From Cristatella mucedo (taxonomy: Eukaryota; Bryozoa; Phylactolaemata; Cristatellidae): DNA of 64,000 nt. Shown one piece after another: positions 55,101 to 58,100 of the stretch. Every line of letters starts with the position of its first letter. Positions within the stretch are counted from its first letter, which is position 1. Made by a program: the position numbers and the translations under genes. The notes below the pieces were generated by a model. It made no database searches. It was not told the DNA's origin and saw only the letters and a list, made by a program, of their open reading frames with translations. The stretch is from the NCBI GenBank assembly GCA_009760855.2, contig WPIO01000012.1, forward strand, positions 7,313,501 through 7,377,500, read 5' to 3'.

Positions 55101-58100
55101 GGGCTGCAGACATCTTCGTTGGTGCAGCTACATATTCACCGGCCTCGTTGGTTGCATTTCGGATTGCACAATAGGAGATTTATACCTGTAGTGTAGCTGT
55201 CATGTTGGAATCCTAGCCAAGATTTGAACTGCTGCTTGTTCGTTGTCCTTCTCGACCGGAGGCTTGCCCCTGCCAAGTCATTTTGTGAAAACATGCCTCT
55301 GTGAAAACAGAGATTGTGCTCATCAGTGCGCCGTGCATTCTTTCTTGCTATGTGCCACACATTTAAACAGTGAGCAATTTGCTTGACAAGGCCGAGTGGT
55401 CCTGCATCGGATATTGACTGCATGATTGGAAAGTGATTGTTTTGAAAAAATTTCGATTGGGATTAAGCAACACTATTCTTCGGAAGTCACCATCCCCTTG
55501 ATCAAACATTCTAGATAGCAATGGCATTGGTAACATGACTTCACTGGCCCTGCATGATCTATCGTCAACATTTTTAATGTGATGTAATTGTAATGTATTT
55601 TATCTCCACTTGTATCTTAACTAAGCTACAAGTGCTAAATGGGTGTTACGAAGGTGAGTTTTCAATAGCACACCGAAAGCCCAAGTGGCTTTCGGTGCAT
55701 ATTTGCTAGCCATTTGACACTGTCGACAACAAGACCCTGCTTGGATTATTGAGGGACGGTATATTTGCTGAGCCTCTCGCGCGGTTTGAGTCTTACGATC
55801 ATGTTCTGTCCATGTCGAATGACAATCTGACTAGATTCAGCAGACCAGTCACATGTGGAGTTTTGCAAGTGCAATATAATGTAATGTATCACCATCTGTA
55901 ACTCCGTAAAGCCACAAAGACTATGCAGGTGTTACGCAGGAGAGTTTTGCAAAGCCCATTCAAAGCCTAAGCAGCTTTCGGCACGCATTCGGTAGCCAAC
56001 AGACTCCATCTCATGCAACAAAGAGAAAATGAAAAGCATCGCTGAGTCGGGAGAGCAATTGAGATCATAAGTATCTGCTTTTCTGTCTGTTGCTGTTGAT
56101 TGTGCACGGTTCGCCTAGAGAGGGTAATTCAAGTCCACTGCACCCAGCTGTAGTTATCAGTCAGACTCTCAGTATTAGCTATAGTGATTGACTTACTCAA
56201 CGCTTGCTTTGCATTTAATTGATCCTGGATTTTGGCCATTTTTGTGAGCTAATCGATGAAAAGCCAAGCTCCCGCTAGGAAATTCCACGACGTGCGGCTG
56301 GAGTGTGAGACATTGCACACCCACCTATTTTGAAGAGCCTTCGTTCGACCTTTGTCGAGGTCCGGTAATACGTATCCTATTTGACAACTGCTTGACGTTG
56401 GAGAGTTTTTATTAAAAGGACAATATCCACATTTAGTTATCATGTTTAATCCCTGTCTAGGATTAGTGACAACTTACGGTAGTGGCTGTGTTAAGATCTT
56501 TCTAGTTCCCTTGCCCCAGGTCCTGTCATGACGATGAATTTCTTCCTTCCATTTCCCTTGAATAATGATAATAATAATAATTCACTTGATAAAGCGCCCT
56601 CAGAGAACTCAATCTCTCTCTAGGCGCTTTACACTTGGAGGCTGTTGGGGACATTTTTTGCACTGCAGGTCTTAAACCATGAAACTCTCACAATTCTTGT
56701 GCTACACACATTTACTCCTGCTGCCGACTCGGGCACATGCTTTCCAGGGCTGCTGCTCTGCTACTTCCTTACTCTTGATATCCTCGGTTGTCTTCCTGGT
56801 TCAGCTGTGAGTCTTGCTCAATCTTTGCTGTGTGTTATGGAGTACATTGGTGGCTACCGTGTGTAGACCAAATGAGTTCCCTGAGGGCGCTTTGTCAAGT
56901 GTATTATTATTATTATTATTATAAATGCTGCATCGGCTTCGAGTGGGTTATAGAATAATCTCTAGGGCAGCTGTTCTCAACTTGTGGGTTGCAACCCCTT
57001 TGGGGGTCGAACGACCCTTTCATAGGGGTTGCCTAAGACCATCGGCAAACACTCATTTCTACATTTCGCGCACAATAATTTTATGGTTGGTGGTTGCCAC
57101 AGCATGAGGAATTGTATTAATGTGTCGCAGCATGAGGAAGGTTGAGAACCACTGCTCTAGGGTAACGGCTGCGTAATATTTATGGCTTTTGTGGAATAAA
57201 ATGCACAGGTACTTGCATACGTTCATCTCTAGTCGCCATGTTGTACTGACATGTCAAAAGTTTCCCTAGTCGGCAAAACTAGGCACTTATGTTGATCGTG
57301 GGCAGGGCTCTTGCAAACGTCTAAAGGCAAGGCTCTATGATCTCCTGCATTATTATAATCTTTGTCTAGGGGACTTGTGTCCTCGGGCACCTCTCGATCT
57401 GTGACTGAATGCCAGGCCTTTACCCAGCGTGTGCTATCAGGTGGACTCGAAGCAGACGGCTTAATGGTCTTATGTGATTAAATGCAGTTGGGGTGCTACC
57501 ACTTTGTCAGCTGCTGCCACGAAGCTCCATCAATTTGGAGCACTCACGGCTCTGACTGGTTGCCTAGGGTGATGAGCTCATGTGAAGGGCTGCCGGGGCT
57601 AGGTCGCAATACCAGGCGTTGCATAGGCTTGAGGCAAACCACCCCCAGACCACGGCGTAGTGGTGCAGATGGGATGGCCGACTTAGAGAGCCTAAGTAAA
57701 GCTGTGATCACTGCATGCAGCACACCACTTCGTATGCTTTTCACTATTCACTATGATTCTCAACCATTGATCTGCTACAATTGGCATCCATTCTGCTGTT
57801 GTTTGTGTCCTTCTCGTCTGCCGATGCACAGTCGGTTTATTTTGGAAAGCCGACAGCTGGCAAGTAGAACATATGTGTAGAGATGTTATGGCCAAGGGGT
57901 CACTCATACCGGCAAGTGCTTGCCAAGATATTCAGTTTTGGCAGGAGGGGGCCTAGCCCTACCCTCTTCCCTGCTCTCCCTTCCCCCCCCCCAGGGATGC
58001 TGGCCACCAACATCGATGCAGCTAGTGGCAGACTTTCTTGCATTGTCTCTGTATTATGCCGAAGTTTAAGTCATTGCCTGATAACGTCTTGTTCTTGGCA

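Follow-up and report, generated by a model that had tools for sequence, protein, structure and literature searches.

A probable SPIN-type hAT transposon copy, old and internally deleted, in a likely Rubicon intron of Cristatella mucedo

The window analyzed here (64,000 nucleotides of Cristatella mucedo DNA, part of the 8.56-Mb contig C33) holds 187 bp bracketed by CTCTAGGG, read directly at 56960-56967 and again at 57155-57162, which raises the question of what this insertion is, how old it is and how it came to this animal. An initial annotation had described it as a SPIN-like hAT element with short inverted ends and an exact duplication, located inside Rubicon and inserted fairly recently. 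Our analysis indicates that it is, very probably, a SPIN-type member of the hAT superfamily of DNA transposons: short, non-coding, internally deleted and inserted long ago. Its parts are as follows.

56960..56967, no strand: left copy of the target-site duplication (CTCTAGGG), of the nnnTAnnn shape found in other genomic copies
56968..57154, + strand: 187-bp non-autonomous element (MITE), probably a SPIN-type hAT, 10.2% from the consensus of 40 copies
56968..56983, + strand: left terminal inverted repeat CAGCTGTTCTCAACTT, 13/16 against the right end
57139..57154, - strand: right terminal inverted repeat, reading CAGTGGTTCTCAACCT on the - strand
56968..57060, + strand: left arm, common to the longer genomic forms, approximately consensus positions 1-93
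57061..57073, + strand: junction of about 13 bp between the arms, the place of the interior sequence in the longer forms (alignment of the 187-bp form with longer forms)
57074..57154, + strand: right arm, common to the longer forms, consensus positions 107-187
57155..57162, no strand: right copy of the target-site duplication (CTCTAGGG), exact over 8 bp

The anatomy given in the initial annotation was borne out. The insertion (56968-57154) starts 5' with CAGCTGTTCTCAACTT and finishes 3' with AGGTTGAGAACCACTG; its inverted ends are short and imperfect, agreeing at 13/16 positions, and the duplication agrees at 8/8. A repeat search returned the exact 8-bp direct repeat together with an inverted repeat of 20 nt at 85%, into which part of the duplication falls. 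An 8-bp target-site duplication and short terminal inverted repeats (here 13/16) are the marks of the hAT superfamily. The window was then scanned for exact 8-bp repeats lying 100-400 bp apart and enclosing inverted ends of at least 12/16, with 20 mononucleotide shuffles as control: only 56968-57154 qualified, against no place in the 20 shuffles. With the threshold lowered to 11/16, there were three places in the window (two within a TG repeat) and one over all 20 shuffles. One 24-base word of the element, with up to 3 mismatches allowed, found no further copy inside the window, where blastn gave, apart from the element itself, a single 14-bp match (E 0.52). An Rfam search gave no match.

The insertion is flanked by two stretches that resemble the Rubicon homology domain.

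53983..54276, + strand: Rubicon homology domain exon, upstream of the insertion (6wcw, E 1.3e-33; PF13901, RH_dom, 4.3e-30)
61964..62062, + strand: probable later Rubicon homology domain exon, downstream (weak match to 6wcw, E 0.14, chain residues 219-250)

Since the element lies between two exons of this domain, it most likely sits in a Rubicon intron, in agreement with the location first proposed. The upstream match is strong, and the weak downstream one falls in the expected later part of the 6wcw chain; Pfam gave no match for the frame near 61964-62062, nor for the frame 49003-49395. Other features of the window include a long open frame on the - strand at 15028-16755 with a Mab-21 C-terminal domain (E 6.1e-07), possibly a Mab-21-like gene, fragments of LINE reverse transcriptase (Pfam RVT_1) at 12698-13093 (-) and 51920-52405 (+), and repeats at 17460-17619, 29858-30016 and 31895-32054 that are 79-93% alike and, by eye, have the look of a tRNA-derived SINE.

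Further copies were looked for throughout the 572-Mb genome, as had been proposed with the initial annotation, and many were found. A search with the window copy, in which the best 40 of 2,019 candidates were scored, returned matches of 86-100% identity covering most of the element; the row at 100% is the window copy. When the family consensus served as the query (40 scored of 2,336 candidates), 41 rows were listed, 40 of them at 94-96% and one at 85%. An internal 21-mer of the element occurs exactly 202 times in the genome, compared with 0 for its reversed control; this count, together with an assumed mean divergence of 9%, suggests a total of roughly one to two thousand copies.

The duplications of these copies bear the signature of transposition. 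We measured 68 copies and kept 58 with two ends, leaving out 10 that lacked both ends or flank. The duplications agree at 6/8 positions or more in 42 of the 58, against a maximum of 12 in 200 pairing shuffles, and 16 of the 58 retain an exact 8/8 duplication. Among the 42, a central TA is present on at least one side in 40 and on both sides in 35. SPIN is, we take it, a member of the Buster group of hATs. According to PMC3517528, nnnTAnnn is the target preference of Buster-type hATs, and the copies described here fit it, with TA-centered duplications in 40/42. The copies themselves show both ends, duplications at many sites, a target preference, their own abundance, longer forms that end alike and how old the burst is. 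From the ends, the duplications and the TA preference we infer a transposase working by cut and paste in trans: the window copy would have been moved by a hAT transposase from a full-length relative, which would bind both ends, excise the element and reinsert it where the target is cut in a staggered fashion, so that 8 bp centered on TA are duplicated.

The age of the insertion differs from what had been suggested. The family consensus was built from the 40 scored copies, the window copy included, and these lie on average 5.9% from it (range 3.2-10.2%; 5.7% in a second alignment), in a set that is biased toward copies closest to the query. A less biased set was drawn from the first 30 exact 21-mer sites listed, two of which (L204 and L223) were left out with less than 140 bp covered; the remaining 28 copies average 9.4% from the consensus outside the 21-mer (range 6.1-18.2%). 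The window copy differs from the consensus at 19/187 positions (10.2%) and is, with L153, the most diverged of the 40. The closest of the 40 is still 3.2% away, and the top identity to the consensus among the matches listed is 96%. The family looks dead and its copies apparently inactive, and, judged by its divergence, the window insertion is not recent. The intact duplication had been taken as a sign of youth; we rejected this reading on the 10.2% divergence and because exact duplications are also kept in diverged copies, those 16 of 58 being found in sets of about 6% and about 9% mean divergence. An exact target duplication by itself thus says little about whether an insertion is young.

Among the 30 sampled sites, the 187-bp form is the usual one. 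In it, about 93 bp from the left end and 81 bp from the right end flank a junction of 13 bp, a layout that an internal deletion of one parent would give; the left and right ends of such a parent would thereby have been joined. Longer forms were also found. At L204, one of the 30 sampled sites, the copy is 482 bp long, with the ends of the 187-bp form and extra interior. A search with this interior gave at least 44 matches (40 scored of 87 candidates), from which 12 were retrieved. L233 is a 608-bp form with both ends present, L234 and L235 are of the same kind and extend past the retrieved stretch, and L239-L244 fall short of this length, measuring about 280-320 bp in those retrieved with both ends. 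The other three, L236, L237 and L238, show the left end and left interior followed by an extra 106-121 bp common to all three and 85-90% alike, which ends near a GTGAGT-like word in two of them; no right arm was found within their retrieved stretches. These three may be remains of longer, perhaps parental, copies.

We also searched the genome for a transposase source. The hAT dimerization domain (PF05699) gave at least 138 matches with 150 of 766 candidates scored, and DUF4371 (PF14291) at least 46, many with stops, with 150 of 237 scored; among these scored candidates, no autonomous copy with SPIN ends was found. Fifty-five of the PF05699 matches share a single score of 76.8 bits, and the 30 of them that were retrieved represent a different, very young hAT family; SPIN ends were present in 0/30 of these copies and in 0/6 hAT relics retrieved with flanks. 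In this second, unrelated family (L167-L196, 30 loci; for example L178:1062-3237 and L181:19-1755), most of the 30 retrieved copies show 98-99.9% identity to L178 across about 2 kb. It has the end TAGGGCTGTACCGG and a 578-aa frame, counted from the first ATG, with the hAT dimerization domain and similarity to Hermes, and it looks to have been active very recently.

To which hAT family does the 187-bp element belong? Two printed mouse primers match inside its left arm, within consensus positions 56-79. Ate1 ScrR2 agrees at 18/20 at consensus 56-75 and at 18/20 on the window copy, and the Kcnq1ot1 reverse primer at 19/20 at consensus 60-79 and at 17/20 on the window copy; in the same ungapped scan, the best of 3,000 random 20-mers reached 15/20. 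The Ate1 primers are printed in PMC2767504 and the Kcnq1ot1 primer in PMC6221546, in passages that do not call the repeats SPIN. ScrR2 is the cleaner case, its paper having been found via another primer, and Kcnq1ot1 was found via a 14-base word of the element. A further Ate1 primer, ScrR1, scored 12/20 in the scan, which wants all 20 bases inside, and it overhangs the element end by one base; of the 19 bases that lie inside, 18 agree when counted by eye, this primer having been found by searching the element end itself. Two control primers scored 12/20 and 15/20, and the higher score is no better than that of the best random 20-mer. It belongs to the Kcnq1ot1 forward primer, which falls at consensus 155-174 on the opposite strand, facing the 19/20 reverse primer; the mouse repeat matched by the reverse primer could have its right end there, at a score that is the chance maximum. 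The primer matches come from the left half only, exact words from the right half having given no meaningful printed match; a Vps18 primer that matched a right-half word (PMC3418201) and a match in a plant paper were both taken as chance. A mouse stretch with a similar end is printed in PMC11247941.

A resemblance to rodent DNA also emerges from an uncurated rodent consensus, written out after the copies had been seen, which serves as a lead and is neither blind nor a database result. This sequence matches the 187-bp consensus at 92.8% over 83 bp and 98.8% over 81 bp, and the window copy at 86.6% over 82 bp and 88.9% over 81 bp. It also matches the longer copies, with identities that lie between those of L241 (78% over 356 bp) and L204 (93% over 135 bp), including the 3' interior of L233 and L239 at about 90% over 190 bp, and it found no match in 7 shuffled elements. 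Thus, the similarity extends past the terminal 20 bp or so, and SPIN membership, as claimed in the initial annotation, is well supported by the sequences: by both ends, by the primers and the uncurated consensus, murine rodents being SPIN hosts according to PMC5857283, by the TA-centered duplications and by longer relatives with more matching interior. The non-autonomous forms of SPIN (SPACE INVADERS) and the rodent repeat URR1, which is linked to SPIN, have the same ends and the same 8-bp TA-centered duplication. They further share the left-arm motif CCTAAGACCATCGG, printed in a mouse primer, a right arm alike in sequence (by the uncurated consensus) and the occurrence of several internally deleted lengths. 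The family described here differs in its invertebrate host, in a 187-bp form with its own junction (about 93 + 13 + 81 bp) and, over the part of the genome candidates scored, in having no autonomous copy. Scans for related sequence elsewhere gave little: five patterns found nothing in viral contigs, a distant blastn found no match in phage records, and a genome-contig scan with a 15-mer returned at least 118 stretches whose longest match was 21 bp with one mismatch (longest exact match 17 bp), which we regard as chance.

Alternatively, the element could be a non-autonomous member of another hAT family, of the Charlie or Buster type, native to the invertebrate lineage and SPIN-like by common descent, having never crossed phyla. 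Related hATs have similar ends and 8-bp duplications, which would fit this reading, as would the fact that our comparison with SPIN uses an uncurated consensus. The snail Biomphalaria glabrata has a SPIN-like hAT of about 1,000 copies, said to share "significant identity" with SPIN in PMC5440852; its likeness to the present family lies in the invertebrate host and the copy number. In that paper, the DNA transposons of the snail are called not recent, and intact transposases are reported as not found. Against a native origin stand the matches of internal, non-coding positions 56-79 to mouse primers (18/20 and 19/20) and the two longer copies whose 3' interior is approximately 90% similar to the uncurated rodent element over some 190 bp. 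Neutral non-coding DNA would lose such similarity in the time since invertebrates and vertebrates split; common descent is therefore disfavored, and we consider a native family improbable. Contamination of the assembly by a vertebrate SPIN copy or contig is far less probable still and was rejected: its sole attraction is that SPIN is best known from vertebrates, and the element with its duplication is embedded in the 8.56-Mb contig, where the joined flanks match that place only, the copies are spread over many contigs and diverged among themselves, and the 187-bp form is the commonest at the 30 sampled sites. The joined flanks matched only the locus of the window itself, so that no second, empty site was found. 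A chance arrangement of inverted and direct repeats without any transposon, to which the short and imperfect ends (13/16) might have pointed, has a negligible probability given the single place in the window at 12/16 or more with none in the shuffles, and is refuted by the copies found elsewhere in the genome with duplications of their own.

With a SPIN-type element thus preferred, its arrival by horizontal transfer would be the likely reason why non-coding DNA of an invertebrate resembles that of a mouse, and would place Cristatella mucedo on the SPIN transfer network. SPIN is among the best-known DNA transposons that spread between distant animals. According to a review (PMC5857283), it entered murine rodents, among other mammals, 15-46 million years ago. 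The SPIN of Rhodnius prolixus likewise has an invertebrate host, and its source there is thought to be a vertebrate (PMC11614815). The transfer to Rhodnius is called recent in the same paper, with up to about 98% identity to vertebrate copies across SPIN, OC1, hAT1 and ET, whereas the burst described here is old. The element adds an invertebrate host to the known SPIN story and is no new kind of element. It is possible, with more doubt than confidence on our side, that SPIN once invaded this invertebrate on a large scale and then died out, leaving perhaps one to two thousand copies of several internally deleted lengths, in an invasion not reported before; the animal would then be a host not yet among those named, possibly from a spiralian phylum with no earlier SPIN record. 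If true, such an invasion would extend the known reach of the transfer network and give it a datable point, in the form of an old burst in a further invertebrate, with many copies and a number of deletion forms.

The mitochondrial sequence bears on the nature of this host. The 21-kb mitochondrial contig C688 (L230, L231 and L232) has repeated blocks in both orientations, with the recognized genes on one strand. TGA is read there as Trp, and within genes, among them cox1, AGA and AGG are found at positions that suit serine, as far as we judge which positions are conserved. These readings exclude the vertebrate mitochondrial code and point to an invertebrate. A search for the molluscan hemocyanin family gave no hit, with controls that were likewise silent, so that it carries little weight. 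The genes nad1-nad6-cob-nad4L-nad4-nad5 form a block on one strand, an order that we take to suggest a spiralian. Outside C688, cox1-like stretches lie at G000:C166:4375626-4376390, C83:2826-3735, C549:2641741-2642010 and C299:634220-634540 and are possibly nuclear copies of mitochondrial DNA; the stretch on C166 has TGA alone in frame, which the mitochondrial code does not read as a stop.
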